Below, piece by piece: positions 11,836 through 37,903 of a stretch of 64,000 nt of DNA. Each line of letters starts with the position of its first letter. The stretch's first letter is position 1. The position numbers and the translations under genes are program-made. This stretch comes from Aromatoleum toluclasticum ATCC 700605. Its GTDB lineage: Bacteria; Pseudomonadota; Gammaproteobacteria; Burkholderiales; Rhodocyclaceae. The DNA lies in NCBI RefSeq assembly GCF_000378245.1, contig NZ_KB899502.1, positions 1 to 64,000 of the forward strand, in the 5' to 3' direction. The notes below the pieces were generated by a model that was not told the DNA's origin, did not search any database, and worked only from the letters and a program-made list of their open reading frames with translations.

Positions 11836-11872
11836 GCTCATGCGAACAACCCAAACGATGCGGGAGACGAAA

Positions 11873-12874: not shown

Positions 12875-12884
12875 GGGAGGGGAC

Positions 12885-14018: not shown

Positions 14019-14409
14019 CGAAGTGCGCGCCGGCGAGGCCCTGCCGGAACTGGCGATCCCGATCACCGTGCCGCTGATCGCCGGCGGCGCGATCGCCACG
14101 CGTGACTACTTCCCCGGCCACCACGACGCGGAAGCCGCGCGCAAGCTCGGTTCGCCGCACATCTTCATGAACATCCTGACGACCAGCGGCCTCGTGCAGC
14201 GCTATGTCGAGGAGTGGGCCGGCCCCGGCGCGCGCTTCGGGGCGCTGAAGATCAAGCTCGGCGCGCCGAACTACCCCGGCGACACGATGACCTTCACGGG
14301 CGAAGTGAGCGGCTGCAACGCCGACAAGCGCAGCGTGGAGGTGACGCTCAAGGGCAAGAACTCGATGGGGAACCACGTGACCGGCACGGTCGCGGTGGTG
14401 CTGCCCTGA
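13990..14409 (+). CDS. chsH1: ChsH1-like MaoC enoyl-CoA hydratase
   Basis: 139 residues, a single hot-dog domain. RDYFPGHHDAEAARKLGSPH carries the Asp and His of the hydratase-2 catalytic motif, followed by IFMNILTTSGLVQRYVEEW. In the Mycobacterium system ChsH1 supplies the active site and ChsH2 the partner domain; together they hydrate the 2-methyl-branched enoyl-CoA (17,20 double bond) on the steroid D ring. The small size, the intact catalytic pair and the position next to Ltp2 all fit. The start overlaps the upstream ACAD gene. Confidence 0.85.
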   Translation: MTSKNTRRFDEVRAGEALPELAIPITVPLIAGGAIATRDYFPGHHDAEAARKLGSPHIFMNILTTSGLVQRYVEEWAGPGARFGALKIKLGAPNYPGDTMTFTGEVSGCNADKRSVEVTLKGKNSMGNHVTGTVAVVLP

Positions 14410-14428
14410 ACCGCGGAGCACGGCACAC

Positions 14429-15607: not shown

Positions 15608-15626
15608 GAAGACGACGGAGACCATC

Positions 15627-16796
15627 ATGTTTGTCGACCTGACGCCCGAACAGCACGCGCTGCGCCGCAGGGTGCGCGACTATTTCCAGGACCTGATGAC
15701 GCCGGAACTGCGCGCGCGCCTGCGCGGCAAGGAAGGCGGCGACGAGTACCGCAGCGTGATCCGCAAGATGGGCCGCGACGGCTGGCTCGCGGTCGGCTGG
15801 CCGAAGGAGCATGGCGGCCAGGGCTATGCGGCGACCGAGCAGCTGATCTTCTTCGAGGAGGCCAACATCGCCGGCGCGCCGCTGCCCTTCGTGACGATCA
15901 GCACCGTCGGGCCCGCGTTGATGGCGCACGGCAGCGCGGCGCAGAAGGCGAAGTTCCTGCCGGGCATCGCGGCGGGCGAGATCCTGTTCGCGATCGGCTA
16001 TTCCGAGCCGGGAGCGGGCAGCGATCTCGCAGCGCTGAAGACCACGGCGCGCCCCGACGGCGACCATTTCGTCGTCAATGGCAACAAGCTGTGGACCTCG
16101 GGTGCGGAAGCGGCGGACTTCATCTGGCTCGCCGCGCGCACGGATCCTGAGCGCCCGCGCCACAAGGGCGTGTCGATCCTGATTCTCGACACCAAGCTGC
16201 CGGGCTTCTCGCACACCGTAATCCCGACTTGCAGCAACCCGACCGCGGCCACCTATTACGACAACGTGCGCGTGCCGGCCGACATGCTGGTGGGCGAGCT
16301 GCATGGTGGCTGGAAGCTGATCACCGCGCAGCTCAACCACGAACGCCTGGGTCTCGGCTCCTGGTCGGACAAGATCGCGGGCCTGTTCCGCCGCGTCTAC
16401 CTGTGGGCCAGGAGTCCCGACGAGCAGGGGCGGTGCGCCACCGACCAGCCGTGGGTGAGGTCACTCCTCGCCGAGTGCTATGCGCGGCTCGAAGCGATGC
16501 GCCTGATCAATTTCCGCATCGCCGCGGATCTGGAGCACGATCGGATGGACGTCGCCCTCGCGTCGACGACCAAGGTCTATGGTTCGGAATCGGCGATCGA
16601 GATCCTGCGCAAGCTATGCGAGATCGTCGGGGCGAGCGGTCTGGTGCGCGCAGGTTCCGCTGCGGCCGCGCTGCTCGGCGAACTCGAATACGAAGTGCGC
16701 GCCTCGGTTACATTGACCTTCGGCGGCGGCACGAATGAAATCCAGCGGGAGCTGATCGCGCAGTTCGGTCTGGGCATGCCCAGGACGGTGCGCTGA
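15627..16796 (+). CDS. Acyl-CoA dehydrogenase (ACAD)
   Basis: 389 residues. The FAD/substrate-binding signature IGYSEPGAGSDLAALKT lies in the middle domain, and GGGTNEIQRELIAQFGLGMPR closes the C-terminus. It belongs to the subgroup used for steroid and other bulky CoA esters (MFVDLTPEQHALRRRVRDYFQDL start). It is co-directional with Ltp2-like (19-base gap). A heteromeric partner is likely among the neighbouring ACADs; 12885 or 18051 are the natural candidates because their middle domains have lost the EPGAGSD-type signature. Confidence 0.86.
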   Translation: MFVDLTPEQHALRRRVRDYFQDLMTPELRARLRGKEGGDEYRSVIRKMGRDGWLAVGWPKEHGGQGYAATEQLIFFEEANIAGAPLPFVTISTVGPALMAHGSAAQKAKFLPGIAAGEILFAIGYSEPGAGSDLAALKTTARPDGDHFVVNGNKLWTSGAEAADFIWLAARTDPERPRHKGVSILILDTKLPGFSHTVIPTCSNPTAATYYDNVRVPADMLVGELHGGWKLITAQLNHERLGLGSWSDKIAGLFRRVYLWARSPDEQGRCATDQPWVRSLLAECYARLEAMRLINFRIAADLEHDRMDVALASTTKVYGSESAIEILRKLCEIVGASGLVRAGSAAAALLGELEYEVRASVTLTFGGGTNEIQRELIAQFGLGMPRTVR

Positions 16797-16831
16797 CGCC
16801 ACCGTGGCGTGACGCAAGACAGGGACAGCGA

Positions 16832-18037
16832 ATGACTACGATCGACGATTTCCGCAGGGAAACCCAGGCCTGGCTGGAAGCCAATTGCCCCCCATCGATG
16901 CGCACGCCGATGCCCGATGGCGAGCTGGTGTGGGGGGGCAGGACGGTCGAATTCAAGACCGAGGATCAGCGCCTGTGGTTCGAGCACATGCGCGACAAGG
17001 GCTGGTTCTGCCCCGACTGGCCGGCCGAGTACGGTGGCGGGGGGCTGAGCCCGGAGCAGAACGCGGTGCTCGAATCCGAGATGCGCCGCCTGCACTGTCG
17101 TCCGCCGCAGATCAACCTCGGTATCTGGATGCTGGGCCCGGTGGTGCTGGAATTCGGCAGCGAGGAGCAGAAGCGCGAGCTGATAACGCCAATGGCGCGC
17201 GGCGAAATCCGCTGGTGCCAGGGCTTCTCCGAACCCAACGCCGGCTCCGATCTGGCCAGTCTGAAGACTTCGGCAGTCGACGCGGGCGACCACTTCCTCG
17301 TCAACGGCACCAAGATCTGGACGTCCTACGGCGACAAGTCGGACTGGATGTACATGCTGGTGCGCACGGACGCGAACGTGCCGAAGCAGCAGGGCATCAG
17401 CCTGCTGGTGGTTGACATGAAATCGCCCGGCATCGAGGCGCGGCCGATCGATCTCATCAGCGGCAGGTCGTCCTTCTGCCAGGTCTTCTTCGACAACGTG
17501 AAGGTGCCCAAACGCCAGCTCGTCGGGCCGTTGAACGGCGGCTGGACGCTGGCGAAGGCGCTGCTGCAGCACGAGCGTCGCGCGATGTCGAAATTCGGCG
17601 AGTTCAGCCTGCCGAACCATGTCGACCTGCTGTCGGTCGCCGCGCGCTACCTGCCGCCCGCCGATGCCGCGAGCACGGCCGATGTCGCGCTGCGCACCCG
17701 CGCGCTGGCGATGGCGATGGACGAGCACGCGTACACGCTCACCGCTCAGCGCATGGGCGAGGAGGCGCGGGCGCGCCAGGACGTGTCGGGCCTGATGGCG
17801 ATCATGAAGCTCGTCCATTCCGAGCAGGAGAAGGACAAGCTCGAAGTGCTGCTGGACGTGATGGGCCATCGCGCCCTGGGCTGGGAGGACGAGGCCTTCG
17901 ACAGCAGCGAACTCGCGCTCACCCGCGCCTGGCTCGGCAGCTTCGCGCAGACCATCGCCGGCGGCTCGTCCGAAGTGCAACTGAACGTCATCGCTAAGCG
18001 GGTGCTGGGTCTGCCCGAAGGCAAACAGGGTAAGTGA
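16832..18037 (+). CDS. Acyl-CoA dehydrogenase (ACAD)
   Basis: 401 residues. The canonical middle-domain signature GFSEPNAGSDLASLKT and IWTSYGDKSDWMYMLVRTD are present, and the C-terminus has IAGGSSEVQLNVIAKRVLGLP. It is the better-conserved member of a tandem pair with the gene at 18051, which lacks this signature, as expected for an alpha-beta ACAD heteromer. It oxidises an acyl-CoA with electrons passed to ETF. A 35-base gap follows the previous ACAD. The substrate is inferred only from operon context. Confidence 0.86.
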   Translation: MTTIDDFRRETQAWLEANCPPSMRTPMPDGELVWGGRTVEFKTEDQRLWFEHMRDKGWFCPDWPAEYGGGGLSPEQNAVLESEMRRLHCRPPQINLGIWMLGPVVLEFGSEEQKRELITPMARGEIRWCQGFSEPNAGSDLASLKTSAVDAGDHFLVNGTKIWTSYGDKSDWMYMLVRTDANVPKQQGISLLVVDMKSPGIEARPIDLISGRSSFCQVFFDNVKVPKRQLVGPLNGGWTLAKALLQHERRAMSKFGEFSLPNHVDLLSVAARYLPPADAASTADVALRTRALAMAMDEHAYTLTAQRMGEEARARQDVSGLMAIMKLVHSEQEKDKLEVLLDVMGHRALGWEDEAFDSSELALTRAWLGSFAQTIAGGSSEVQLNVIAKRVLGLPEGKQGK

Positions 18038-18050
18038 GGAGTCGGTTGCC

Positions 18051-19205
18051 ATGAGTCTGGTGTATTCCGAAGAGCAGCGCCTGCTGGCCGATACCGCCGC
18101 CGAGTTCCTGCAGGCGCGCAGCCCGGTCGTTGCCCAGCGGCGGCTGCGCGATGAAGGTGCCGCCGCGGGTTTCGACGACGCGCTGTGGAAAGAAATGGTC
18201 GGGATGGGATGGAGCGCGATTCCCTTCCCGGAGAACCTGGGCGGACTCGCCTTCGGCTGCATGGGGCTGGGCGCGGTGTTCGAGGCGGTCGGCCGCAATC
18301 TCGCCGCCACGCCCCTGCTGTCGAGCATCGTGCTCGGGGGCACGCTGATCGAATTGGCCGGCTCCGAGGCCCAGCAGGCCGAATGGATGCCCTTGCTGAT
18401 CTCCGGCGACAAGCGCATCGCGCTGGCGCTTGACGAGCACCCGCGCCACGATCCGGTCACCACCGCGCTGCGCGCCGAGCGCCGCGACACGGGCTATGTG
18501 CTGCAGGGCGAGAAGGTGTTCGTGGCCGACGGGAAGGGGGCGGATGCCTTCGTCGTCGTCGCGCGTACGAGCGGCGCGCCGGGCGAGCACGAGGGGCTGA
18601 GCCTCTTCGTTGTGCCGGCCGCGACGCCCGGCCTGAACGTGTCGGCGATGGGAATGATCGATTCGCGCAACCACGCGCGCCTGCGCCTGAATGACGTGCA
18701 CGTCGACGCGGGCGCCTTGCTGGGGGCGGAAGGGCAGGCGTGGGCCGCGCTGGAAGCGGCGCTCGACCGCGGCCGCGTGTGCCTCGCCGCGGAGCTCCTG
18801 GGGATGACCCAAAGCCTCTTCGACACCACCGTCGAGTATCTCAAGACGCGCGTGCAGTTCGACGTACCGATCGGCTCCTTCCAGGCGCTGCAGCACCGCG
18901 CGGCCTGGTGCTACGCACACCTGCATCTCGCGCGCAGCGCGGTGATGGCGGGGCTTGCCGCGATGGACGACCCGACGCTCGACGCCGCCGGTCGCGCCCG
19001 CCTCGCGAGCCTCGCGAAGTGGAAGGCCGGCGATGTCGCTCACCGCATCAGCCGCGAGGCGGTGCAGATGCACGGCGGCATGGGCGTCACGGACGAACTC
19101 GACGTGGGCCTCTTCCTCAAGCGCATCCGCGTCGCGCAGGCTTTGCTGGGCGACGGCGATTTCCACGTGCAGCGTTACAGCGACGTGACACCGGTGGAGG
19201 CATGA
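18051..19205 (+). CDS. Acyl-CoA dehydrogenase, divergent partner subunit
   Basis: 384 residues. The N-terminal ACAD helices (SLVYSEEQRLLADTAAEFL) and the C-terminal domain with the arginine-containing KTRVQFDVPIGSFQALQH and VQMHGGMGVTDELDVGLFLKR are clear. The EPGAGSD-like motif of the middle domain is replaced by DEHPRHDPVTTAL, which suggests loss of the substrate-binding loop. Such divergent subunits pair with a canonical ACAD (here the ORF at 16832) in steroid-type heterotetramers. The 13-base gap to its predecessor supports co-translation. Confidence 0.85.
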   Translation: MSLVYSEEQRLLADTAAEFLQARSPVVAQRRLRDEGAAAGFDDALWKEMVGMGWSAIPFPENLGGLAFGCMGLGAVFEAVGRNLAATPLLSSIVLGGTLIELAGSEAQQAEWMPLLISGDKRIALALDEHPRHDPVTTALRAERRDTGYVLQGEKVFVADGKGADAFVVVARTSGAPGEHEGLSLFVVPAATPGLNVSAMGMIDSRNHARLRLNDVHVDAGALLGAEGQAWAALEAALDRGRVCLAAELLGMTQSLFDTTVEYLKTRVQFDVPIGSFQALQHRAAWCYAHLHLARSAVMAGLAAMDDPTLDAAGRARLASLAKWKAGDVAHRISREAVQMHGGMGVTDELDVGLFLKRIRVAQALLGDGDFHVQRYSDVTPVEA

Positions 19206-19209
19206 AGTG

Positions 19210-20010
19210 ATGACGAAACCCGGCGCGGCGCTGTTAGGCGGCAAGGTCGCTGTCATAACCGGCGCCGGCCAGGGCATTGGCCGTGGCGTCGCGCTCCGTT
19301 TGGCGGCGGAGGGCGCCCACGTCGTGGTTTCCGACATCAATTCGCATGCCGCAGCCGAAACCGTGTCGCTGATCCGGACTCAAGGCGGTGATGCAGCCGC
19401 GATCGGATGCGATATCGCCGACAGTGCGAGCCTCGAAGCGTTGGTGCACACTGTCGTCGGCCGCTTCGGGAGCCTCGACATCCTCGTCAACAACGCTTAC
19501 CTCGGCAATCTTCCGGGCCCGCTCGAAGCCAAGCCCGTGGCCGATTTTGCGCGGGCCCTGCAGGGCAGTTTGTACGCGCCGCTGGTCGCGATGCAGTGCG
19601 CCTTCCCGCACATGAAGGCCCGGCGGTATGGGCGCATTATCAATATGTGCTCGCTCAACGGCGTCAATGCTCACCCGTACACTGCCGACTACAACGTGAG
19701 CAAGGAGGCGCTGCGATGTCTGACCCGAAGTGCCGCGCGCGAGTGGGCAGCACACGGCATCACGGTGAATGCGATCTGCCCCGCAGCCCGCACGCCGGCC
19801 TATGAGCGTTTTGCCGCCGCGTCACCGGAGAACGCCGCGCTGTTGTTGAAACAGAACCCGATGGGGCGCATGGGCGAAGCCGAGCAGGACATCGGCAGTG
19901 TCGTCGCATTCCTCTGCGGGGACGGGGGAGGCTACATGACCGGCAACACGCTGTTTGTCGACGGCGGCTCCCACATCAACGGGGTTTCCTGGCTGCCGTC
20001 GGTGGCCTGA
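19210..20010 (+). CDS. Short-chain dehydrogenase/reductase, last gene of the igr-like operon
   Basis: About 266 residues. TGAGQGIGRGVA is the cofactor motif, NNAYLGN replaces the usual NNAG, and the active site is seen as SLNGVNAHPYTADYNVSKEAL (Ser, Tyr and Lys of the SDR triad). The C-terminus has YMTGNTLFVDGGSHINGVSW. GGAGG at 19196-19200 serves either the ATG at 19210 (chosen) or an in-frame GTG at 19207. A hydroxyacyl-CoA or hydroxysteroid dehydrogenase role is inferred from context. The gene marks the right edge of the catabolic block; the sequence after it is decayed. Confidence 0.85.
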   Translation: MTKPGAALLGGKVAVITGAGQGIGRGVALRLAAEGAHVVVSDINSHAAAETVSLIRTQGGDAAAIGCDIADSASLEALVHTVVGRFGSLDILVNNAYLGNLPGPLEAKPVADFARALQGSLYAPLVAMQCAFPHMKARRYGRIINMCSLNGVNAHPYTADYNVSKEALRCLTRSAAREWAAHGITVNAICPAARTPAYERFAAASPENAALLLKQNPMGRMGEAEQDIGSVVAFLCGDGGGYMTGNTLFVDGGSHINGVSWLPSVA

Positions 20011-20164: not shown

Positions 20165-20281
20165 GCATCGAGGTCAGCGCGACAGCCGGCATGACAGGTG
20201 ACGCATTTCAGCGTGCAGGGCAGGCAACCATCCGAAGCCGTCTGCTGCTGACTCGGTGTTGTCCGACCCCTGCGGCTCCTA

Positions 20282-20323
20282 CCGGACCCGGACGGCGGGG
20301 CGAAAAGCGTCTATCGCGGATGC
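20282..20323. repeat. Left copy of a 42-bp imperfect direct repeat
   Basis: It aligns without gaps to 22083-22124, with 36 of 42 bases identical by eye; both copies begin CCGGACC and end TCTATCGCGGATGC. The pair brackets the PAAR/amidase/small-membrane-protein set. It could be an insertion footprint or a dispersed intergenic repeat. Confidence 0.7.
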
Positions 20324-20348
20324 GCGATTCTGCGTTTGACCAGAACGG

Positions 20349-20687
20349 CTACTCCGCTTTGTAGAACCCGCTCTCCCTTAGCCGCCCCTCAAGGGTTGCC
20401 AAACAGTCAACCTCGCTTTCGCCGAACCGAACAGCGCAGTATCGTTGAAGCGCCAGGCGCTTCACGTCGGGCATGTCTGTGTCGTGGTGCATCACTCGAA
20501 ATGGCTCAACAGGGAGCGAGAAAACCAAAGCCAAGGCCGGCTGTCTCTTGATGAACGGCACAGGCACAGTAGTAAGCTCATGGTCCGACAGTACAGGCTC
20601 CATGTCGATCCCGACGAACAGTGTGAAAACCAGCAGGAGGCCGGCGCCAATCGCCAGTTTCGGCTTATTTCGGAACATCAAGGCCAT
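20349..20687 (-). CDS. Small membrane-anchored protein, candidate immunity protein
   Basis: 112 residues. An N-terminal membrane helix (LAIGAGLLLVFTLFVGI, about residues 10-26) is followed by a ~85-residue domain, probably periplasmic, with two cysteines (RYCAVRF and VDCLATL). I recognise no family. The start lies inside the 3' end of the amidase gene (23-base overlap), the usual position of an immunity gene relative to a T6SS peptidoglycan-targeting effector. A periplasmic location would let it neutralise an amidase. The function is inferred purely from arrangement and topology. Confidence 0.6.
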   Translation of the reverse strand: MALMFRNKPKLAIGAGLLLVFTLFVGIDMEPVLSDHELTTVPVPFIKRQPALALVFSLPVEPFRVMHHDTDMPDVKRLALQRYCAVRFGESEVDCLATLEGRLRESGFYKAE

Positions 20688-21444
20688 ACCGATCGCGTAA
20701 GTCGCGGGCGATTTTCAAACCGTGCGCTCCTGGACAGGCCCGCCCTTGATCGTTCGCCGAAGCAAACTCGCGATGGCCGCCAAGCATCGCAATTTTGAAG
20801 TATTCAACGAGCGTCTTCACCAGGACATCGACGGCATTAAGTTGTGGCGTTGTCGGTGTGTCCCAACTCGTTGAAACAGTATCCTTGGCTTGGCCAAGTA
20901 TTTCGGCGACCCCAGCCTTTGCACCCCGCTTGAAGCTGTCACTCAATGAGGGGCCATGCGCGACCGCTTCACCAGGTAGGGAAAAATCTGATAAAAACAC
21001 GATGCCGATTTTCCCGGTATTGGCCGCTTTCAAATGCGCACCCTTTTCCCGTATATCCAGTGCCTCGTAAATCGTGCCCTTGCAATCTATCGCGTAGTGG
21101 TAGCTGATGTGTCCGAAGCTCGCAATGTCCGTATCTTCCGCCTTGCGAATCAACTCGGCACCATCGGCCGAACACGAATAGCTGTTTCCGGCGTGGTGAA
21201 TCACGATAGCGCTGTAGTCCCAATCCGGACCATCGGAGCGTGCGGATGGCTTGGCCTTCCACTCGGAGCGGGTCATCAACGGAATGCCGGCCTTGCGGAT
21301 CGCGACAATGATCGCTTGGCGCGTCGCTGCCTTGTGGTCGACCTTGACCGTGACAGTTTTGACCGCTTCGGCACGTTTTGCTTCGATAGTGGCCCAGGTA
21401 TCAAAGGAGCCTGTTTTCAGATCGTCGGTGCGGACATCACTCAT
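20665..21444 (-). CDS. N-acetylmuramoyl-L-alanine amidase (amidase_2/PGRP-like), likely T6SS effector
   Basis: 259 residues. After ~55 residues of N-terminal extension the amidase_2 fold is visible: TRSEWKAKP, IVIHHAGNSYSC (first zinc histidine), GHISYHYAIDCKGTIYEALD, and a C-terminal GGHREF...CPGAHG with the other His/Cys zinc ligands. It would cleave the bond between MurNAc and the peptide stem. There is no signal peptide, so delivery in trans by a secretion system is likely. The gene overlaps the PAAR gene by four bases, linking it to a T6SS spike. A prophage endolysin is a weaker alternative because no phage genes are nearby. Confidence 0.82.
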   Translation of the reverse strand: MSDVRTDDLKTGSFDTWATIEAKRAEAVKTVTVKVDHKAATRQAIIVAIRKAGIPLMTRSEWKAKPSARSDGPDWDYSAIVIHHAGNSYSCSADGAELIRKAEDTDIASFGHISYHYAIDCKGTIYEALDIREKGAHLKAANTGKIGIVFLSDFSLPGEAVAHGPSLSDSFKRGAKAGVAEILGQAKDTVSTSWDTPTTPQLNAVDVLVKTLVEYFKIAMLGGHREFASANDQGRACPGAHGLKIARDLRDRYGLDVPK

Positions 21445-22016
21445 GCCAAATCCCCACGCTGGATGGTGTTACCGCTCGGCGAGCGGAAATAAAAGTGCAC
21501 CGATACATCCTCTGGCTGATCGGAATCGATGATTTCGGTAAGGCCGTTGCCATCGGTCACGCCCTCGGTCCGCGTGCCATCCTGGCGGGTCACGACATAC
21601 GGGCTATGCTGCGCCGGTTGTCCGGTTTCGGCATCGAGCGCCTGAAATCGGATTTCGTGACGAAGCGTATCGTCTTTAAGCTGATCGCGGGCCGCTGCCG
21701 GCTGCGCGAACGAATTGCCGGAAGACGAGTAGCCGACGGCGCTTTCGTTGTCGACATAGGTCAGTATCTGGCTGGAAATCAGCGTCGCTCCGCAGGCCGT
21801 TTTGTCGCCATGTCGAGCCACCGGCTGACCATCGATGATCGCCGTCAAATCCCCTGTGACGATGGTAGTCACGGAACCGTGCCCTTTCTGGGGACACGTT
21901 ACCTTGTCGCCGATTCGGGCAACCGCCTTCCCGCCGACATCGGTGAATGGGGAACCGGTGATTACCACACCGCCATGCGATGTTCGATCACCCACAACAA
22001 TTACCGGTCTTGACAT
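21441..22016 (-). CDS. PAAR-domain protein (T6SS spike tip)
   Basis: 191 residues from MSRPVIVVGDRTSHGGVV; an upstream in-frame ATG at 22043 would add nine residues. The PAAR fold (residues ~1-90) contains repeated G-D-x-T/V-x-C/H elements: VGDRTSHGG, IGDKVTCPQKGHG, RHGDKTACGA. The C-terminal half (about 110-191) is a small beta-rich segment (VVTRQDGTRTEGVTDGNGLT) of the kind that decorates spike proteins. PAAR proteins cap VgrG and carry effectors. It is the first gene of a three-gene unit with the amidase and the small membrane protein. No T6SS structural genes lie in the window. Confidence 0.85.
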   Translation of the reverse strand: MSRPVIVVGDRTSHGGVVITGSPFTDVGGKAVARIGDKVTCPQKGHGSVTTIVTGDLTAIIDGQPVARHGDKTACGATLISSQILTYVDNESAVGYSSSGNSFAQPAAARDQLKDDTLRHEIRFQALDAETGQPAQHSPYVVTRQDGTRTEGVTDGNGLTEIIDSDQPEDVSVHFYFRSPSGNTIQRGDLA

Positions 22017-22082
22017 AGGGTTACCCGGAAACCCAAAGGGCATATTTTACACCGGCGTTGCCCACCTTGGGTGGTCGCCCTT

Positions 22083-22124
22083 CCGGACCAGCAGGGCGGG
22101 CCGAAAACGGTCTATCGCGGATGC
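22083..22124. repeat. Right copy of the 42-bp imperfect direct repeat
   Basis: Same orientation as 20282-20323, with six mismatches over 42 bases. It sits between the PAAR gene and the 3' end of cofD, about 100 bases from the cofD stop. Confidence 0.7.
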
Positions 22125-22224
22125 TTCTTAAGTGGAAAGAAGTCGCGAATATCCGCAAACCGACAATAAGTACCCAGAATGCGTGTGGAGCGTGCGGTAT
22201 TGTCGCGGGGGTATCCCATTCAGA

Positions 22225-23175
22225 TCAAGCGCGACTCTTTAAGTGCTTCGCGAAGTCCACGGTCTCCCGCGCGACGCGGACGCGATCCTGCGGTGTCCGC
22301 ATCAGCGTGTCGGTGACATGCACGGGCAGCGCGATGCGCTCTTGCAAATGCGCGTCGCGGACGTCGAGGACGAAGCCGTCGAGCAAGTCGCCGTAATAGC
22401 GCACGATCTGCTCGGCGCCCACCGGCACACCGAGTTCAGCCATGATCTTCGCGGTCGGCCCCTTGACCGCTGTGCCGCCCACCAGCGGCGAGACGGCGAC
22501 GATGGGCACGCCGGTCGCACGCAGCGCGTCGCGCAGGCCCGGCACGGCGAGAATGGGGGCGATGCTCAGGTAAGGATTGGACGGGCAGATCACGATCGCC
22601 TCGAGCGCGTCGTCGGTCAGCGCGGCCAGGACGGCGGGGGAGGGGCGCACGTCGTTCCCCTGCGCGAACTCGATCGAGCGGGTCACCGGCCGGCACTGGT
22701 GGCGGACGAAATAGTCCTGGAAGTCGAAGATCCCCTCGTCGGTGTGGACGTGCGTGCGCAGTGGCTGGTCGGACATCGGCACGATGTCGGCTTCGATGCC
22801 GAGGCGGCGCGCAAAGTCGGCGGTGATCGCGGAAAGCGTCTCGCCGGCCGCGAGCCGGCGCGTGCGCTCTACGTGGGTCGCGAGATCGCCGTCGCCGAGG
22901 CGGAACCAAGTTTCGCCGCCGAGACTGGCCAGTGCATCCATGAAGGTCCACGTCTCGTCGCGCCGTCCCCAGCCGGTCTCGGGGTTTGCCACGCCGCCGA
23001 GCGTGTAGAGGGCAGTGTCTACGTCCGGAGAGACGTGCAACCCGAGATGGGTGAAATCGTCGCCGGTGTTCACGACCACAGTCAGCCGCGCGTCGTCGAG
23101 CGCGTGCATCAGGCCGTCGGCGAGCTTCGCACCCCCGACGCCGCCGCTCAGGGCGAGGATATGAGCTCCGGTCAT
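22225..23175 (-). CDS. cofD: 2-phospho-L-lactate transferase (CofD/FbiA), F420 biosynthesis
   Basis: 316 residues. The N-terminus HILALSGGVGGAKLADGL is the CofD signature, followed by VVNTGDDFTHLGLHVSPDVDTALYTLGG and the DEGIFDFQDYFVR and CPSNPYLSI blocks. CofD/FbiA joins the lactate-type phosphodiester unit to the deazaflavin Fo, making F420-0 (or dehydro-F420-0). Its ATG overlaps the cofE stop by four bases. F420 is common in Actinobacteria and methanogens but patchy in Proteobacteria, which suggests acquisition by transfer. No cofC, cofG or cofH gene lies in the window. Confidence 0.92.
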   Translation of the reverse strand: MTGAHILALSGGVGGAKLADGLMHALDDARLTVVVNTGDDFTHLGLHVSPDVDTALYTLGGVANPETGWGRRDETWTFMDALASLGGETWFRLGDGDLATHVERTRRLAAGETLSAITADFARRLGIEADIVPMSDQPLRTHVHTDEGIFDFQDYFVRHQCRPVTRSIEFAQGNDVRPSPAVLAALTDDALEAIVICPSNPYLSIAPILAVPGLRDALRATGVPIVAVSPLVGGTAVKGPTAKIMAELGVPVGAEQIVRYYGDLLDGFVLDVRDAHLQERIALPVHVTDTLMRTPQDRVRVARETVDFAKHLKSRA

Positions 23176-24002
23176 TGGAACAGATCCCCTTCGAGCGGAC
23201 GCAGCAACGCCTTGCAATCGACTTCCGGAGCGGCGGGCAGGAAACCGCTTGCCAGCACCACCGGCATGCCTTCGTCGCCTTCGCCCATCACGATAGCGGC
23301 GCCGGCGGCGATTGCGTCGGCGAAGGCCGTCTGGGTGATCTGCAGGGTGCGTCCGTGGCGATCGGTCTCGCCGCGCCGATCGATCAGCGCCGGGATGCCA
23401 GCCGAGCCGAGGGCCACATTCACGACGCCGTTGCGCCACGGGCGGCCGAAGCTGTCGCTGATGATCACGCCGACCGACGTGTCGGTGCGCGCGCGAAGGG
23501 CTTCGCGCAACGCCGCCGCCGACGCATCCGGGGCGAGCGGCAACAGCAAGGCCCGCTCGCGGCCGCCTTTGCCCGGGACGTTGGAGAGGTCGATGCCGGC
23601 ATTGGCCATTACGTAGCCCAGGCGGTGGCGCACGATCAGCACGCCGGGCACCGCGCGCAGCACGTCGGTCGATTCGGCCAGCGTGAGTTCGACCAGACGG
23701 GGATCCTTGCCGGTGATGCGCGCAAGTTCGAGGGCATGATCGGACGGCCTGACCTCGTCGAGCCACGCGAAGCGGCCTTCGGCCTTGGAGACGATCTTCT
23801 GCGCGACGACGACGATGGTGTCGGGAGCGAGTTCGATCGCACTCGCATCGAGCGCGCGCATGACGAGTTCGTCCAGCGCATCGCCCGGCCGCACTTCCGG
23901 GATGCCGGGGAGCGCCTCGAAGCAAAGCCGCCGGCGCGCGGCAGGCACTGCGGTACCGTCGATGGGCATGGGGTCCGTCTCCGTGGGCGGGACAAGGCGC
24001 AT
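23172..24002 (-). CDS. cofE: F420-0:gamma-glutamyl ligase (CofE/FbiB N-terminal type)
   Basis: 276 residues from the outer ATG; an internal ATG at 23969 (MPIDGTAVP) is an equally good start. Family motifs seen are [53 protein letters not shown] and [19 protein letters not shown]. CofE adds glutamates to F420-0. Unlike actinobacterial FbiB there is no C-terminal nitroreductase-like domain, so this is the short form. It is 19 bases after the OYE-type gene and overlaps cofD, so all are probably one transcript. Confidence 0.92.
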
Positions 24003-24021
24003 CGCCCCGTCCCTGGCGCGC

Positions 24022-26154
24022 TCAGGCGGACAGCCCGGCGAGCATGCCCGACTTGATCGCGCCCTCGATGTAGCCGAGCTGCGCGCCGTCGCCGACCGAG
24101 CTCACCGGTACACCGGCCGCTTCGAGCGATCGCGCAAGGCTGTCGTCCGGACGCGCGCCTATGGCCAGCACCACCGACTCGGCAGCGAGTTCGCAGCGCT
24201 TGCCCTCGGCATCGGTGTAGATCAGCTTCTTCTTCTCGATCGCATCCACCTTCGCCTTCGTGTGCAGCGCGACGCCGTGTTGGCGCAGCGTGTCGAGCAC
24301 GCGCCAGCGCCGTACGATGGAAAGTTCGCGGCCGAGGCTCGGGCCTTCCTCCAGCACCACGACCTCGCGCCCGCGGTCGACCAGGAATTCGGCGAGTTCG
24401 ACGCCGACGAGGCCCCCGCCGACGATCGCCACCTTCTTGCCGAGCGGCATCCACACCCGCGACAGGTTCTGGATCGCATCGGTGCTGTCGGTGACTCCAA
24501 CCAGGCTGCCGGCCTTCATCAGCGCGCGCTGGGCGAGGGAGAGCTTGCGCTTGGCGATCTCCTCGGCGCGATCGCCCGTCATCAGTCGCCGCAGCTCGTC
24601 GCCCGACCACACGTGGTCGAGGTCAGCGCCCGGAATCGGCGGCGCATTGCGCTCGGCGCCGCTTGCGACGACAACCGCCGTGGCCTTCAAATCGCGGATC
24701 AGCTCGGGCGTGGCAGCCGTGTCGAGGCGTACGTCGATGTCGAGCTTGCGCATCTGCGTGACGAGATAGTCGAGCAGCGCGCCGTTTTCGGCATAGGCGA
24801 GCGCGGCGAAGAACAGTGTGCCGCCCAGTCGCCCGCTGCGCTCCAGCAGCGTCACCCTGTGCCCGCGCAGCGCCGCGGTGCGCGCGGCTTCCATGCCCGC
24901 CGGGCCGCCGCCGACCACGACGACGTGGCCCGGCTTGGTCGCCGGCACGAGCCGCATCTCGGCCTCGTGGCCCGTCATCGGATTGACGGCGCACTTGACC
25001 CGCTCGTTGATGAAGATCTGGCTGACGCAGGCGTAACAGTAGATGCACGGACGGATGTCCTCGGGCCGGCCCTCGGCGAGTTTTTTCGGGAGATCCGGAT
25101 CCGCGAGCAGCTTGCGTCCGATCGCGACGAAGTCGCACTGGCCCGCTGCGACGGCGTTGTCCGCGACCTCCGGTTCCAGCCGGCCGACCGCGATCACGGG
25201 GATCTTCAGCCTTTCCTTGATCTCGGCCGCCCACTGCAGGAAACCGGCCTTCTGCTGCACGAGCGGGGCCTCGGTGAAGGCCACGCCGGTGCTGGTGTTG
25301 GCATAAGCGGACACGCTCACGGCATCGCAGCCGGCGTCCTCGGCCATCTTCGCGAAGAGCCTGGCCTCGTCGAGCGTGATGCCGCCTTCCATGCGCAGTT
25401 CATAGGCGTCCAGGCGCAGCCACACCGGGTAGTCGTCCCCGACGCGGGCGCGCACCGCAGCGATCACCTCCCGCAGGAAGCGGCCGCGATTTTCGAGGGA
25501 ACCGCCATACTCGTCGTCGCGCTTGTTGAAGTAGCCCGACAGGAAACCGGCGATGATGTAAGTGTGAGCAGCATGGATCTCGACTCCGTCGAATCCCGCG
25601 CGACGTGCGCGGTCGGCGGCCGCGGCGAACCATTCGATCATCTGCTCGATGTCGGCCTTGTCCATGACGCGGATCTTCACACCGGCTTTCTCGCGGCCCT
25701 TCGACGAACTGATGAACGCGCCCAGCTCCTCTTGCGTCAGCGCAGCGAACATGTCGGTCTTCAGCGGCGGAGGCATCGACGGCACCCACAGCTCGCGGCC
25801 CTCGACAAGGTCGCGCACCGACGTCTTGCCGGCGTGCTGGAGCTGGATCGCGATCTTCGCGCCATGCTTGTGCACCCGCTCCACGATTCCCATCAGCCCC
25901 GGGATGAATTTGTCGTCGGAGAGGCCGACCTGGTAGGGCTCGGCCGTGCCGTGCGGATAGGCAATGGCTCCCACCCCCATGGTGATCAGACCCACGCCGC
26001 CCGCGGCCCGCGCCTCGTAATAGGCCTGTATGCGCTCGCCGCACGTTCCGTCGGATTCCGCGAAGTTGGACCCCATCGGCGCCATCACGATGCGGTTGCG
26101 TAGTTCCAGGCGGCCGATGCGGCCGGGCTGCAAGAGATTGTCGAAAGCTTCCAT
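24022..26154 (-). CDS. OYE-type NADH:flavin oxidoreductase with Fe-S and FAD domains (2,4-dienoyl-CoA reductase/BaiCD-like)
   Basis: 710 residues in the FadH/2-enoate-reductase layout. Residues ~1-340 form an FMN TIM barrel (NRIVMAPMGSNFAE; VEIHAAHTYIIAGFLSGYFN followed by DEYGGSLENRGRF). A [4Fe-4S] site lies at CIYCYAC...KCAVNP (Cx2Cx2Cx11C). A C-terminal FAD/NAD(P)H domain follows, with VVVGGGPAGMEAARTAALRG and VAIVGGGLVGVELAEFLVDRG. Such enzymes reduce activated double bonds of enones or dienoyl-CoAs, including steroid 4-enes in the BaiCD/BaiH group. The gene is eight bases after the hydrolase gene and directly before cofE. The substrate is unknown. Confidence 0.88.
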   Translation of the reverse strand: MEAFDNLLQPGRIGRLELRNRIVMAPMGSNFAESDGTCGERIQAYYEARAAGGVGLITMGVGAIAYPHGTAEPYQVGLSDDKFIPGLMGIVERVHKHGAKIAIQLQHAGKTSVRDLVEGRELWVPSMPPPLKTDMFAALTQEELGAFISSSKGREKAGVKIRVMDKADIEQMIEWFAAAADRARRAGFDGVEIHAAHTYIIAGFLSGYFNKRDDEYGGSLENRGRFLREVIAAVRARVGDDYPVWLRLDAYELRMEGGITLDEARLFAKMAEDAGCDAVSVSAYANTSTGVAFTEAPLVQQKAGFLQWAAEIKERLKIPVIAVGRLEPEVADNAVAAGQCDFVAIGRKLLADPDLPKKLAEGRPEDIRPCIYCYACVSQIFINERVKCAVNPMTGHEAEMRLVPATKPGHVVVVGGGPAGMEAARTAALRGHRVTLLERSGRLGGTLFFAALAYAENGALLDYLVTQMRKLDIDVRLDTAATPELIRDLKATAVVVASGAERNAPPIPGADLDHVWSGDELRRLMTGDRAEEIAKRKLSLAQRALMKAGSLVGVTDSTDAIQNLSRVWMPLGKKVAIVGGGLVGVELAEFLVDRGREVVVLEEGPSLGRELSIVRRWRVLDTLRQHGVALHTKAKVDAIEKKKLIYTDAEGKRCELAAESVVLAIGARPDDSLARSLEAAGVPVSSVGDGAQLGYIEGAIKSGMLAGLSA

Positions 26155-26162
26155 GACTCGGC

Positions 26163-26993
26163 TTACCCCTTGGTCAGAAAATCGATGCAGCTGCGGTTGA
26201 AGAGTTCGCGATGTTCGACCTGCACCCAGTGGCCGCAGCGGTTGAGCAGGATCATGCGCGCATTGGGGGCGTTCTCTATCAGCTTGAGGGCGCCCGTGTG
26301 CGGGTTGAACTTGTCGTCGGTGCCCCAGAAGCCGAAGATCGGCACGGCGATCTCATGCAGGCGCTCCGTCATGTTCGGCACCACCATCGTGGAGAACAGG
26401 TTGGCCGGCTGCAAGGGCGCGATCGCCGCGCGCTCGCTGATGATGGCGTCGTCGAGCAGGGCCGGGTCGAACACCTGCAGGCTCATCACGTGGCGCATCT
26501 CGGCCGGCCCCATCGGCCCTTTGGAGAAGGTCTCGACCATGCGCACGATGCCTTCCATGCGGAAGTAGGTCTCGCGCTCCTCGACGCCACCGGGCGCCAT
26601 CAGGATCAAGCGCTCGACCGTCTCGGGATGCGCCAGCGCCTGGCCCAGCGCGATGGCGCCGCCGAGCGAATTGCCGAGCAGGGTGCAGCGTTCGATGCCG
26701 ATCGCCTTCAGGAAGCCGTGCAGCGCCGTGACGAAGAAGTCGAGGTTGTACTGCACGTCGGAGGGCTTGTCCGAGCGGCCGAAGCCCGGCAGGTCGAGCA
26801 CGATGTTGCGGAAACCCGCCTCGGCGAAGGCCGGGTAATTACCCTTGAAGTTGCTGTAGCCGCTCGCTCCCGGGCCGCTCCCGTGCAGCCACACCACCGC
26901 CGGCCCCTGGCCGACGTCGAGATAGTGCAGGCGCAGGCCTGTGTCGAGCTCGACGAACTGCTCGAGAGGGATGGGCAGATCGGGGGAATTCAT
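26163..26993 (-). CDS. Alpha/beta hydrolase, meta-cleavage-product (HsaD/TesD/BphD)-like
   Basis: 276 residues. The oxyanion motif LHGSGPGASGYSNF is typical of C-C bond hydrolases, the nucleophile elbow is GNSLGGA (Ser), the acid is probably the Asp of WGTDDKFNP, and the histidine lies in CGHWVQVEHRELFN, which also matches HsaD/BphD. These enzymes hydrolyse ring-fission products; HsaD/TesD does this in steroid A-ring degradation. No extradiol dioxygenase is present in the window, so a different C-C or ester bond may be the target. It is the first gene of the operon with the OYE-type, cofE and cofD genes. Confidence 0.84.
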   Translation of the reverse strand: MNSPDLPIPLEQFVELDTGLRLHYLDVGQGPAVVWLHGSGPGASGYSNFKGNYPAFAEAGFRNIVLDLPGFGRSDKPSDVQYNLDFFVTALHGFLKAIGIERCTLLGNSLGGAIALGQALAHPETVERLILMAPGGVEERETYFRMEGIVRMVETFSKGPMGPAEMRHVMSLQVFDPALLDDAIISERAAIAPLQPANLFSTMVVPNMTERLHEIAVPIFGFWGTDDKFNPHTGALKLIENAPNARMILLNRCGHWVQVEHRELFNRSCIDFLTKG

Positions 26994-27106
26994 CGGGAGG
27001 TCTCCTCGGGGAAGGGTAGCGACGGCGCGTCCATGCGCTCTCGACGGCGCGAAGGAAGGCTGCCGTCCTCATTCGGGACCTATTCTCCCGCTGGGCAGCA
27101 GGGGAG

Positions 27107-27124
27107 CATCGTCCGTTCAGACGA
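27107..27124. promoter_or_regulatory. Candidate operator, palindromic element copy 2
   Basis: CATCGTCCGTTCAGACGA is identical over 18 bases to 10980-10997, in a different intergenic region 16 kb away. Confidence 0.6.
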
Positions 27125-27152
27125 ATCGTGCCGCGATACCGGCGGCGGCGCG

Positions 27153-27170
27153 TAGTCTCAACGGACGATG
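27153..27170. promoter_or_regulatory. Candidate operator, copy 3 (reverse orientation)
   Basis: Read on the minus strand it is CATCGTCCGTTGAGACTA, 16 of 18 bases identical to copies 1 and 2. Its inverted placement relative to 27107-27124 suits control of both divergent promoters. Confidence 0.55.
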
Positions 27171-27319
27171 AGGCGCGCGGAGGGGCTTCGGACAATGCGG
27201 GCAATTTCTCGCAGGCCTGTCGCGTGGCGTCGGGCATTTCGGGAAGAAACCGTCCGCTGTTATCGTCCGACCTGCAGACAGGCCGGCGATGCCGGAATGG
27301 ACAGCCTGGGGAAGCTTGC

Positions 27320-28888
27320 ATGGACGAACACGACATCACGCCGGCACGGCGCAATTTCCTGAAAGCCAGTGCCGCGCTGGGTACAGCCGTAGCCGCGGGA
27401 CTTGGCCCCGGCGTAGCCGCTGCCGCGCGGCCGCAATCCGCACTGCCGCTGCCGGAATATGAGCGATGGGATGCGATCGAGATCGCGCGAAGGATCCGAG
27501 GCGGCGATGTCAAACCGGGCGAGGTGCTCGAAGCAGCGATCGCCCGCGCCGAAGCCTACTCGGTCATCAATGCCGTCACGTCGCCGCATTTCGACCTCGC
27601 CCGGGAGCAGGCGCGGGGGCTGGATTCCGCAGGCAGGGCCGAACGCGAGGCGAGGCCGCCGCTTTCCGGCGTGCCCTTCGCGTTAAAGGATCTTTCCGTC
27701 GCTCTGAAGGGGACGGTCACCACCAACGGCTGCGCCTTCTTCAAGGAGGCGGTGGCGGACCTGGACTCCACCGTCGTCGCGCGCTACAAGGCGGCGGGGC
27801 TCAACATCTTCGCGAAGCTCGCGTCGCCCGAATTCGGGCAGACCGGGACCACGGAATCGCGCCTCTTCGGGCTCACGCGCAATCCGTGGAACCTGGAGCG
27901 CAGTTCGGGCGGTTCGTCCGGCGGCGCTTCGGCGGCAGTCTCGGCAGGTGTCTTGCCCGTGGCGCACGCGAGCGACGGGGGCGGCTCGATCCGGATTCCC
28001 GCATCGCATTGCGGCCTGTTCGGCCTCAAGCCCAGCCGCGGACTGATTCCGATGGGCCCGGCGGCGCTCGAAGGATGGATGGGACTGTCGGTGCACAACG
28101 TCATCAGCCGCAGCGTGCGCGACACCGCGTGGCTGATGCAGCTCAGCCAGGGGCCCGAAGCGGGGACGCGTGCGGCACCCGCGACCGCCGATCTGGTGAA
28201 GGCGCTGGGCCGCTTCCCCAAGGGGCTGAAGATCGGGCTCTTCGACACCAATCTCTTTGGCATGGGCGTTCACCCCGAATGCCTGGAGGCCGTGCACAAG
28301 GCCGCGACATTGTGTGCAGGTCTCGGCCATCACGTCGAACCGATCTCGCTGCAACAACTGCCTTTCCTCGAAATGTTCGGCGGCATGGGGGTGATGACCG
28401 GTACCGGCATGTTGTACACGGTGCGGGCGCGCGAGAAGCTCCTCGGGCGGCCGGCGCGCGAGGATGAATTCGAGCCGATCAACTGGCTCACGCTGCAGAA
28501 GGCACAGAAATACACCGCCGAGCAGCTTTATGCGGCGCGATCGGTCTTCGATCAGGGCGGGCGGATCTTCGACGAGGTGCTCACGCGCTACGACCTGATC
28601 CTGTCGCCGACTACCGCCGCGCTGCCGCCCAAGCTCGGCGAGCTGTCGCTGGACCAGCCCTTCGACGACTTCGCGAAGCGGGCCGTGCTCGCCTCGCCCT
28701 TCACCGCAATGTTCAACATGAGCGGACATCCGGCAATGTCGGTTCCGCTGCACTGGAGCGCGGAAGGCCTGCCGATCGGCGTGCAGTTCGCGGCCCCGTA
28801 TGGCGGCGAGGCGCGGCTCATTGCCCTCGCGGCACAGCTCGAAAAGGCCGCGCCGTGGGCTGACCGCCGTCCGCCCGCGCTGGCGTGA
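27320..28888 (+). CDS. Tat-exported amidase-signature hydrolase
   Basis: 522 residues. A twin-arginine signal is visible at the N-terminus (ARRNFLKASAALGTAVAAG, Ala-rich cleavage zone near residue 34). The amidase signature has the Ser-cisSer-Lys triad: Lys in FALKDLS and the serines in RSSGGSSGGASAAVS, then DGGGSIRIPASHCGLFGLKPSRG. It hydrolyses an amide or ester, presumably in the periplasm; 6-aminohexanoate cyclic-dimer hydrolase-like and aryl-amide hydrolases share this layout. The start at 27320 was chosen for the signal peptide. It is divergent from the hydrolase operon and ten bases upstream of an SDR gene. Confidence 0.86.
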   Translation: MDEHDITPARRNFLKASAALGTAVAAGLGPGVAAAARPQSALPLPEYERWDAIEIARRIRGGDVKPGEVLEAAIARAEAYSVINAVTSPHFDLAREQARGLDSAGRAEREARPPLSGVPFALKDLSVALKGTVTTNGCAFFKEAVADLDSTVVARYKAAGLNIFAKLASPEFGQTGTTESRLFGLTRNPWNLERSSGGSSGGASAAVSAGVLPVAHASDGGGSIRIPASHCGLFGLKPSRGLIPMGPAALEGWMGLSVHNVISRSVRDTAWLMQLSQGPEAGTRAAPATADLVKALGRFPKGLKIGLFDTNLFGMGVHPECLEAVHKAATLCAGLGHHVEPISLQQLPFLEMFGGMGVMTGTGMLYTVRAREKLLGRPAREDEFEPINWLTLQKAQKYTAEQLYAARSVFDQGGRIFDEVLTRYDLILSPTTAALPPKLGELSLDQPFDDFAKRAVLASPFTAMFNMSGHPAMSVPLHWSAEGLPIGVQFAAPYGGEARLIALAAQLEKAAPWADRRPPALA

Positions 28889-32695: not shown

Positions 32696-32895
32696 GTCCC
32701 GATCGCCTCTGCTCACACATACAAAACTTTCATCCTCGTCGGTCGTGTCGAAGCACCCTTTTCATCAGGGGCATCGGTGCGCGCTTCAGTGCAGCGTCGA
32801 GTAGCAGAAGTATAAATGACATAAAGATAGTCATGTGCTGGTGGACCGGGTAATCGGTAGAGGGAAAGAAGTTGAAAAATCCAAAGGAGAAAGAC

Positions 32896-34275
32896 ATGGT
32901 GACTAATAAGACGCTGCTATTGCTGTCAGCTACGGTTGGACTCGTTTGCGCGAGTAGCAGCGCGCTATCGAAGGTGAGTGCCGAAGAGGCCTCAAAGCTG
33001 GGGAAAAATCTGACCTGCATGGGCGGCGAAATGGCCGCGAATGCCGCTAACACGATTCCGGCGTTCTCCGGGAAATGGCTAGGCGCTCCACCCCACGTCA
33101 AATACGAAAATCACATCGGCCAGCATCCCGTCGATCCCTATCCCGAAGACAAGCCAATTTTCGAGATCACCTCGAAGAACTTCGAGAAGTACGCCGATCA
33201 CCTGACCGAAGGGCAGCGGGAGATGTTTCGCCGCTACGCCTCGTTCAGGATTCCGGTGTACCCGGGGCGGCGGGACTTCAGATTCGACGACAAGTTCTGT
33301 GAAGTGGCTCGCAAGAACGCGCTTCAGGCGGAGCTGATCGACGGCGGTCCTGGATTCACCGGACACCAGGGCACGCCACCCTTCCCAATCCCGAAGCAGG
33401 CCATGGAATTGCTCGTGAACATGACCTTCCCGGTGTTCGCTTTCACCGAGGACACCCTGCGCGACATTGCCAACGTGAATCCGGTGGGCGAAATCTTCTG
33501 GGGCCAGCAGCGCAACCTCAACCTCAATGTCGTCACCCAACCTGACGAGGTCGGCAAGCCCATGGGGAAGATCATGGCGTACGCGATGACGCATACGATG
33601 CTTCCCATACGCGATAGGGGAGCGGTGTCATCGGCCGTGGAGCCGGTGAACCTTGCCAAGGACAAACGCCTGGCCTGGAACTATGACCCGGGTACCCGCC
33701 GCGTAAGGCAGCTGCCCATATATGGGTATGACACTCCTCTGGCCGGAACCTCTGGTCTGATGACAATCGATCAGGACCGGCTGATGAACGGTGATCCTGG
33801 CCGCTACGACTGGAAGATGCTCGGCAAGCGTGAAATCTACATCCCAGCCAACACTTATCGACTCCATGGAAAAAACGTGAAGTATGCCGATCTGTTGCAT
33901 CGGAATCACGCGAATCCAGACTATCTGCGCTATGAACTGCGTCGGGTCTGGGTGCTCGAGGGGACGCTGAAGGAAGGCTACCGTCATGTCTTCGGTAGGC
34001 GCGTCCTGTTTATCGATGAGGATAACTGGCAGGCATCGGTATCCGATTACTACGACAGCCGCGGATCGCTCTGGCAGCACGCGTTCATCGCGCACTATTA
34101 CGCCTTCGACCTCAAAGGCTGGCAAGCCGGCAACAGCTTCTACCATGATCTCAGTAGTGGGGGATACATCGCCTACAACCTTTTCCAGGAGCGTCCGCTC
34201 GGCCCTGTCCTGAATGCCGGAAAGATGAGCCCGACGATGTTCGGTCCGGAAGCCTTGCGTCAGATCGGTCAATGA
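32896..34275 (+). CDS. DUF1329-family periplasmic/outer-membrane protein, copy 1
   Basis: 459 residues with an N-terminal signal peptide (KTLLLLSATVGLVCASSSALS). The body matches DUF1329: YDPGTRRVRQLPIYGYDTP, TIDQDRLMNGDPGRYDWKML, LRYELRRVWVLEGTLKEGYRH and VLFIDEDNWQASVSDYYDSRG. The fold resembles LolB-type lipoprotein carriers. DUF1329 proteins nearly always precede a DUF1302 gene in degraders of hydrophobic compounds and are thought to take part in outer-membrane handling of the substrate; this is not proven biochemically here. AAAGGAG at 32883 supports the ATG at 32896. It is collinear along its whole length with the second copy at 40807. Confidence 0.88.
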   Translation: MVTNKTLLLLSATVGLVCASSSALSKVSAEEASKLGKNLTCMGGEMAANAANTIPAFSGKWLGAPPHVKYENHIGQHPVDPYPEDKPIFEITSKNFEKYADHLTEGQREMFRRYASFRIPVYPGRRDFRFDDKFCEVARKNALQAELIDGGPGFTGHQGTPPFPIPKQAMELLVNMTFPVFAFTEDTLRDIANVNPVGEIFWGQQRNLNLNVVTQPDEVGKPMGKIMAYAMTHTMLPIRDRGAVSSAVEPVNLAKDKRLAWNYDPGTRRVRQLPIYGYDTPLAGTSGLMTIDQDRLMNGDPGRYDWKMLGKREIYIPANTYRLHGKNVKYADLLHRNHANPDYLRYELRRVWVLEGTLKEGYRHVFGRRVLFIDEDNWQASVSDYYDSRGSLWQHAFIAHYYAFDLKGWQAGNSFYHDLSSGGYIAYNLFQERPLGPVLNAGKMSPTMFGPEALRQIGQ

Positions 34276-34288
34276 ACAGGAGACTGAG

Positions 34289-35914: not shown

Positions 35915-35927
35915 CAGGCGTCGGATC

Positions 35928-35944
35928 GAGCCCTTTGGCTCTTT
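35928..35944 (+). terminator. Short hairpin after the first DUF1302 gene
   Basis: The arms GAGCC and GGCTC surround the loop CTTT, followed by TTT. It lies 14 bases after the stop codon. The stem is short and the U-run weak, so this is only a possible terminator. Confidence 0.35.
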
Positions 35945-36057
35945 CCCTGCAAGTCGTTCATGACGGATCACTCCTTCCTGGCCTGAGTGTTCGGAGGGGG
36001 TGTGCCCGCCATGACGCCAGAACCTGTCCCGAATAAGCCTCTTGAACTGGAGTGGCG

Positions 36058-37413: not shown

Positions 37414-37447
37414 CTCATGAATAGACGTTCCTTAGCGAGGAGTGACG

Positions 37448-37855: not shown

Positions 37856-37903
37856 CGTGTCGCGGCGCGCCTGCCATCAGGCGCACCGCGACATCCCGTC
37901 GGG

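Follow-up and report, generated by a model that had tools for sequence, protein, structure and literature searches.

Within a 64,000-nucleotide stretch of Aromatoleum toluclasticum ATCC 700605 (referred to as the window), two genes for the biosynthesis of coenzyme F420, cofE and cofD, lie directly behind the genes of a catabolic hydrolase and a flavoenzyme, raising the question of how cofactor genes came to be placed there. The first-pass annotation had proposed that the pathway of these enzymes has an F420-dependent step and that cofactor supply is co-induced with it. The genome (5.92 Mb, 46 contigs; the window is positions 1 to 64,000 of contig C12) suggests a different answer. We consider it probable that cofED is the surviving core of a lost F420 operon (operon A) whose complementary half is found at a second locus (operon B), the pathway being split between the two remnants. 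The window operon would accordingly be a deletion product and not an assembly made to supply a locally encoded step.

The cofED genes and the F420 complement of the genome

Four genes follow one another on the minus strand, and their open reading frame (ORF) coordinates agree with the order first described: an alpha/beta hydrolase resembling the C-C hydrolases BphD and HsaD (26163-26993), a long OYE/FadH-type flavoenzyme (24022-26154), cofE for F420-0:L-glutamate ligase (23172-23969) and cofD for a phospholactate-type transferase (22225-23175), which has a 4-base overlap with the cofE stop. The earlier intergenic distances of 8, 19 and -4 bases are correct if cofE starts at 24002 (ORF 23172-24002, minus strand); with the ATG at 23969, which is the better start, the middle gap becomes 52 bases.

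The CofD and CofE assignments stand, with CofD scoring 302.7 bits against the TIGR01819 equivalog cut-off of 257.45 and CofE 245.7 bits against 180.65 for TIGR01916. CofE is under the cut-offs of two narrower models, namely NF009809 (228.6 of 274) and NF009810 (184.6 of 304). Alignments with solved proteins extend across nearly the full length of CofE (2phn, 7uld, 2g9i) and of CofD (CofD/FbiA 3c3d and 6uvx), and both are predicted to be genuine F420 proteins. The other two genes are assigned at family level. The hydrolase has 188.5 of 462.15 and 188.1 of 400 bits with C-C hydrolase equivalogs (BphD/HsaD/TesD), while the flavoenzyme (PF00724 and PF07992) is under the cut-off of each of the best 25 of 104 NCBIfam families matched, its nearest solved relative being 6qkg, labelled NCR. 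A sigma-70 scan of 22000-27700 gave one promoter-like match (0.5 expected), located within the OYE gene.

The strain has two copies of each F420 gene. CofD and CofE are encoded on contig C5 and in the window; FbiC is encoded on C5 and at C12:147.7-150.1 kb, with the CofG half over its cut-off in both and the C12 protein also over the full CofGH cut-off. CofC and Fno/NpdG, all over cut-off, are encoded on C5 and in operon B of C12. The C5 set is thus complete (cofCDE, fbiC, fno), and C12 has two complementary halves approximately 125 kb apart. An absent Fo synthase, the refuting outcome named in the first-pass annotation, is ruled out by the two FbiC copies. The same annotation had placed the F420-dependent oxidoreductase outside the window, and the genome search it called for (cofC, Fo synthase, LLHT/FDOR families) is consistent with this. 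Neither a PF00296 LLM nor a PF04075 FDOR-A type enzyme was found in C12:1-64000, and elsewhere there are six LLM-family places (four on C5, one on C17 and one at C12:154 kb; two over the TIGR03619 cut-off) and one FDOR (PF04075/TIGR00026, on C17), all of them candidate F420 users; the FDOR-B family was not searched for in window or genome. The C5 set (locus L020, C5:150-170 kb) forms a complete third F420 cluster amid genes for an acyl-CoA dehydrogenase (ACAD), a thiolase, a FadB-like protein and four LLM-family proteins. Its CofE, CofD and FbiC group with those of Parahaliea and Pseudohalioglobus in trees.

Operon A in relatives and its probable deletion in the window

A contig scan with the window CofE gave 71 loci, the nearest being those of Aromatoleum evansii (93%), Azoarcus Aa7 (89%), A. 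toluolicum (86%) and A. anaerobium (84%). The order hydrolase-OYE-SnoaL-fno-cofE-cofD-cofC-fbiC, followed by cysD-cysN(C)-cysQ-TetR, is present in A. anaerobium, Azoarcus Aa7, A. toluolicum (cysDNQ on a separate contig), Thauera 28 (with several additional genes separating SnoaL from fno) and T. butanivorans, and Thauera 2A1 and the metagenome-assembled genome (MAG) KAN-75 have the same F420 operon from fno onward. In Aa7, TetR is followed by a sulfotransferase, an unassigned 483-aa protein, a short-chain dehydrogenase/reductase (SDR) and an LLM protein of TIGR03617 (342 bits against a cut-off of 278). Relatives of this LLM (87-95% identical) lie downstream in A. anaerobium, A. toluolicum, T. 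butanivorans, Thauera 28, Thauera 2A1 and T. terpenica. It has no solved relative at E 1e-15 and no orthologue among the six LLM places of the strain (best 28% over 130 aa). A set for making 3′-phosphoadenosine 5′-phosphosulfate (cysD, cysN with an APS kinase domain, cysQ-type phosphatase) together with a sulfotransferase trails operon A in relatives (L029:15191-18839, L111:733-1917, L113).

Beyond the LLM, Aa7 has in divergent orientation the catabolic genes that occupy 6683-19205 of the window. These encode a ketosteroid-dehydrogenase-like FAD enzyme, a FadD3-family ligase and an enoyl-CoA hydratase (ECH) on the minus strand, an SDR, a ChsH2-like protein, a MaoC-like protein, ACADs and lipid-transfer/thiolase-like proteins. 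As this set stands beside a complete F420 operon in Aa7, the window corresponds to that island minus two pieces, lacking SnoaL, fno and everything from cofC to the LLM. Blastn comparison with six relatives shows the window alignment breaking off at 24004-24027 and starting again at 23921-23937. On the relatives' DNA the matching ends are separated by 1.3-1.5 kb in four cases, by 5.8 kb in Thauera 28 and by 0.8 kb in T. terpenica; on the other side, alignment stops at about 22250, just before the end of cofD. The junctions are OYE|cofE and cofD|PAAR in the window, and fno|cofC in operon B as compared with A. diolicum.

Between OYE and the cofE core there is a 77-base deletion scar (23945-24021, minus strand), in which the missing fno gene has apparently left its ribosome-binding site and initial codons. 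In a gapped test its best local match is this site of fno in four of five relatives. For DNA no more than 80 nt from the fno start, shuffles were as good in 0-3 of 1000 cases with four relatives and in 14 of 1000 with Thauera 28. An ungapped test gave 17-55 of 200 shuffles equally good. T. terpenica has kept SnoaL, has a clearer remnant of the fno start (E 2.4e-5) and has an operator that is damaged, as judged by eye. As its deletion differs from that of the window, fno has been lost at least twice.

The operator concerned is a 16-bp sequence, its strands written TCGTCCGTTCAGACGA / TCGTCCGTTGAGACTA. The shared operator of the first-pass annotation proved real: TCGTCCGTTSAGACKA occurs without mismatch at 10982, 27109 and 27153, all three intergenic. 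Two copies lie in the hydrolase/amidase divergent promoter, one at 27109-27124 (plus strand; identical in the closed genome G214 and with one base changed in A. evansii) and one at 27153-27168 (minus strand; identical in both). Candidate regulators acting on TCGTCCGATCGGACGA and on this pair are the TetR proteins encoded in the island (C12:73267-73944 and C12:53917-54681) and the operon A TetR of Azoarcus Aa7. The third exact copy (10982-10997, plus strand) precedes the SDR/ChsH2-like/ACAD gene run. A scan allowing up to three mismatches gave 6 matches against 2.04 expected, a number reached by 2 of 100 shuffles, the three exact matches being the telling ones. Described with the wider pattern TMGTCCRNNNRGACKA, 160,000 of the 170,842 bases of C12 have 14 strand hits at 11 distinct sites, all intergenic by our own gene calls (20 Markov shuffles average 0.0), and 63 kb of C5 and C17 have one site, which is intragenic. 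On these scans a chance repeat was rejected. Further C12 sites lie near genes for HsaC-like (C12:90130) and HsaA-like (C12:113337) proteins and an acyl-CoA ligase (C12:66815). In all seven operon A loci that have fno the operator is 105-107 nt before this gene, and it was found within 300 nt upstream of fno in none of 60 other loci, two of which have less than 130 nt upstream and several of which come from the same genomes, so that not all are independent. A search of intergenic regions for shared 10-mers did not pick it up. An operator-like site (40662-40677, minus strand; 3 mismatches to the stricter pattern) precedes the second DUF1329 gene, in one of two DUF1329/DUF1302 gene pairs at 32872-43856. 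The catabolic promoters have the operator in common and its sites on C12 are confined to intergenic DNA, consistent with putative control as one regulon. Since in relatives it stands before the complete operon A, with an F420-type LLM downstream, cofactor supply was probably co-regulated with the catabolic pathway in the ancestor.

From these comparisons a course of events can be proposed. The ancestor would have had operon A as fno-cofE-cofD-cofC-fbiC-cysD-cysN-cysQ-tetR, then the sulfotransferase, 483-aa protein, SDR and LLM genes, behind hydrolase-OYE-SnoaL of a steroid-type island and under its own operator copy. One deletion stretch would have taken SnoaL, that operator and fno, the fno translation start apparently becoming fused to cofE, and another would have taken everything from cofC to the LLM. 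As the operator was deleted together with fno, cofED would be left downstream of the hydrolase-OYE promoter with its two operator copies, a case of promoter capture, and may thereby have stayed in the same regulon via a different promoter. Operon B, which adjoins an LLM gene and two ACAD-like genes elsewhere on this contig, would in parallel have lost exactly cofED, and CofGH, CofC and Fno from B with CofE and CofD from A would rebuild the pathway.

Operon B and the proposed split pathway

In A. diolicum, operon B consists of LLM-ACAD-ACAD and, divergently, fno-cofE-cofD-cofC-fbiC. The C12 operon B aligns with it on both sides, skipping exactly cofED and keeping fno-cofC-fbiC. Its two ACADs are confirmed by Pfam (the second at L019:12772-13938), while the query used for the second was out of frame (six stops) and its tblastn matches are unreliable. 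Operon B likewise has no cofED in A. evansii, A. toluolicum, Aa7, G214 and the genome G044, which share one FbiC clade with the strain (100/100), and this loss was probably one event. A further event is seen in T. terpenica and T. butanivorans, whose fno-cofC-fbiC loci belong to a different FbiC clade and likewise have no cofED; the T. terpenica split is similar and independent.

Trees place the window CofE and CofD in clade A (100/99 and 98/99) and the C12 FbiC in clade B (100/100), ruling out a B-type ancestry for the window cofED. They took 32, 32, 34 and 35 of 78, 76, 68 and 68 rows (cofE, cofD, fno and fbiC respectively), chosen by a name list. The fno row for operon A of A. anaerobium is a single-frame reading past a frameshift with a long branch, and its placement carries no weight. 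In A. evansii and in G214 a single CofE and a single FbiC were found, located at the two remnants, and as G214 is a single 4.96-Mb contig, an assembly gap as the cause of the split is ruled out. T. terpenica has its single CofE at operon A and FbiC at two places. The fbiC and cofE surveys covered 13 genomes, two of which (G192, G207) are apparently one genome, and those for Bac_luciferase and FDOR covered 12. CofE was found in 9 of 17 genomes of the genus and 20 of 199 of the family sample, and FbiC in 10 of the 17.

The window genes are intact. Among the strain, A. evansii and G214, omega is 0.145-0.281 for cofE and cofD, indicating purifying selection and ruling out decaying pseudogenes; between the strain and G214 it is 0.129 for the hydrolase and 0.102 for OYE. 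A. anaerobium retains both operons, with a B cofD of just 197 aa (187 of 257 bits; L037:10753-11346) and an A fno that is frameshifted in the draft (L028:9330-10040), possibly through an assembly error; each has an intact-looking counterpart in the other operon. Three other loci from the surveys are worth mentioning. G044 (L122, one contig) has FbiC, CofC and a shortened Fno (198 aa) and no CofE was found in it, suggesting a probable dead F420 pathway beside an LLM/ACAD locus. Genome G100 (L106) of the same genus has one CofE and one FbiC, with no LLM (E 1e-10) and no PF04075 FDOR match, and hence no recognised user of F420. An F420 operon also occurs in L095, titled a Klebsiella pneumoniae MAG, which looks like a mislabelled or mixed bin.

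Several observations weigh against the split-remnant explanation. The link of operon A to the hydrolase-OYE pair is not universal, as neither gene was found in the available 2.5 kb (Thauera 2A1) or 4.6 kb (KAN-75) upstream of fno. When the scar is compared over the whole interval, 6-75 of 300 shuffles equal it with four relatives and 120 of 300 with Thauera 28, for which the best match lies away from the fno start. Because the operator pattern was made wider once sites were already known, the count of 11 sites on C12 is descriptive and not independent. In T. terpenica, the second FbiC piece ends at a contig end with its neighbours out of view. The cofE omega between the strain and G214 (0.281) exceeds that of every other operon A pair compared, and the C5 set makes the split pair dispensable in this strain.

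This last point is also the attraction of regarding the window cofED as a redundant relic kept by chance, with all F420 supplied by C5, where the complete set lies with its four LLM-family genes. The intact frames and low omega argue against this, as does the recurrence of this arrangement in A. evansii and G214, neither of which gave a further cofE, and we regard the relic reading as improbable. Somewhat better placed, though still unlikely, is the original proposal for this strain, whereby the hydrolase-OYE pathway has an F420-dependent step and cofED was kept so that the last two maturation steps rise with the substrate. The putative operator in common, the conserved cofED, the F420-type LLM linked to the operon in relatives and the LLM beside operon B on the same contig are all in its favour. 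However, the island of this strain has lost its LLM, fno, cofC and fbiC, and the promoter of the B fno is without such an operator, which would therefore not co-induce the first steps. Co-induced cofactor supply is therefore partly supported: it fits the ancestral design, with the operator before the complete operon and an LLM downstream, but has been kept only in part and is misleading as a reading of this strain. It is very doubtful that the window CofD and CofE use another substrate or make an altered F420 for this pathway, such as the 3-phosphoglycerate (3PG) variant or one of other tail length. A betaproteobacterial 3PG-F420 has been described (available text of PMC8498797) and the CofC proteins of operons A and B are 44-47% identical, yet both window proteins are over their equivalog cut-offs and no evidence for another substrate was found, the specificity of CofC not having been tested. 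Returning to cofED as the core of operon A, it most likely contributes to a genome-wide pool of F420 on which enzymes of other loci draw.

Neighbouring genes, known systems and meaning

Where relatives have cofC to LLM, the window has a PAAR/N-acetylmuramoyl-L-alanine amidase cassette (20278-22124) between two 46-bp direct repeats (85% alike), which also holds a small ORF. Its amidase gene is nearly identical in G214 (dS 0.016, against 0.18-0.43 for seven surrounding genes), and this suggests a recent transfer or conversion. The adjoining SDR gene (19207-20010) stands next to the ACADs in Thauera 2A1 too. Among the steroid-type proteins, the FadD3-family ligase and the lipid-transfer subfamily are over curated cut-offs and the HsaA-like (373 of 450), HsaC-like (258 of 450) and ketosteroid-1-dehydrogenase-like (575 of 788) enzymes are under theirs. 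An 819-aa MMPL-family protein with weak sterol-sensing and Patched domain matches is encoded near the island (61340-63799).

As with other proteobacterial F420 clusters (FbiC, CofC/FbiD, CofD/FbiA, CofE), all enzymes are present in the genome and FbiC is fused. Many relatives keep fno-cofE-cofD-cofC-fbiC together, whereas here, besides the C5 set, one set is split in complementary halves, and unlike in the usual clusters the window cofED follows a catabolic promoter. The association of F420 genes with steroid genes is already known. The cholesterol cluster of Sterolibacterium denitrificans (SEDNCHOL_10763-10772) has cofC, cofD and cofE beside the acyl-CoA synthetase ACS3, a steroid isomerase, ECH, SDR and ACADs, according to a figure legend of a 2019 review (PMC6678751), a legend that mentions neither a hydrolase-OYE link nor a split. 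In Sterolibacterium MAG loci L044 and L047, a 59%-identical relative of the window ligase lies just before cofE, and the CofE of MAGs L044 and L058 is outside clade A, a comparison that covers MAGs and not the isolate. Bile acids are degraded by Azoarcus Aa7 and androgens by T. terpenica (PMC8399759, PMC9980454). With respect to the aerobic 9,10-seco and anaerobic 2,3-seco steroid clusters of Azoarcus Aa7 and Thauera, the genes of window 6683-19205 recur in Aa7 and other C12 genes resemble those for HsaA and HsaC. No F420 role is given for these clusters, the term "F420" occurring 0 times in the available text of both papers, nor do "steroid", Azoarcus or Thauera occur in that of the F420 review PMC8498797. 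A literature search, with most subscription papers outside its scope, showed, among the matches listed, neither the split nor the operator described, nor any F420 role proposed for these steroid degraders, and the split and operator are apparently new, no account of them having been found.

Physiological roles of F420 outside the Actinobacteria are largely open and experimental work has been called for (available text of PMC8498797). These loci offer specific candidates, namely the TIGR03617-type LLM, Fno and the operator, in culturable isolates, and A. evansii is a natural test, with one cofE and one fbiC found, at two loci. Deletion and promoter capture can make a gene seem embedded in an operon, a point of importance when function is deduced from operon membership. 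For the denitrifying Rhodocyclales, it can be tentatively suggested that F420 may be a dedicated catabolic cofactor of the steroid-type island, with synthesis, NADP recycling and an F420-dependent LLM in one regulon, and that duplicated operons may decay in a complementary manner, the catabolic copy keeping cofED and the other fno-cofC-fbiC in both independent cases seen, which would tie cofactor supply to catabolic induction.

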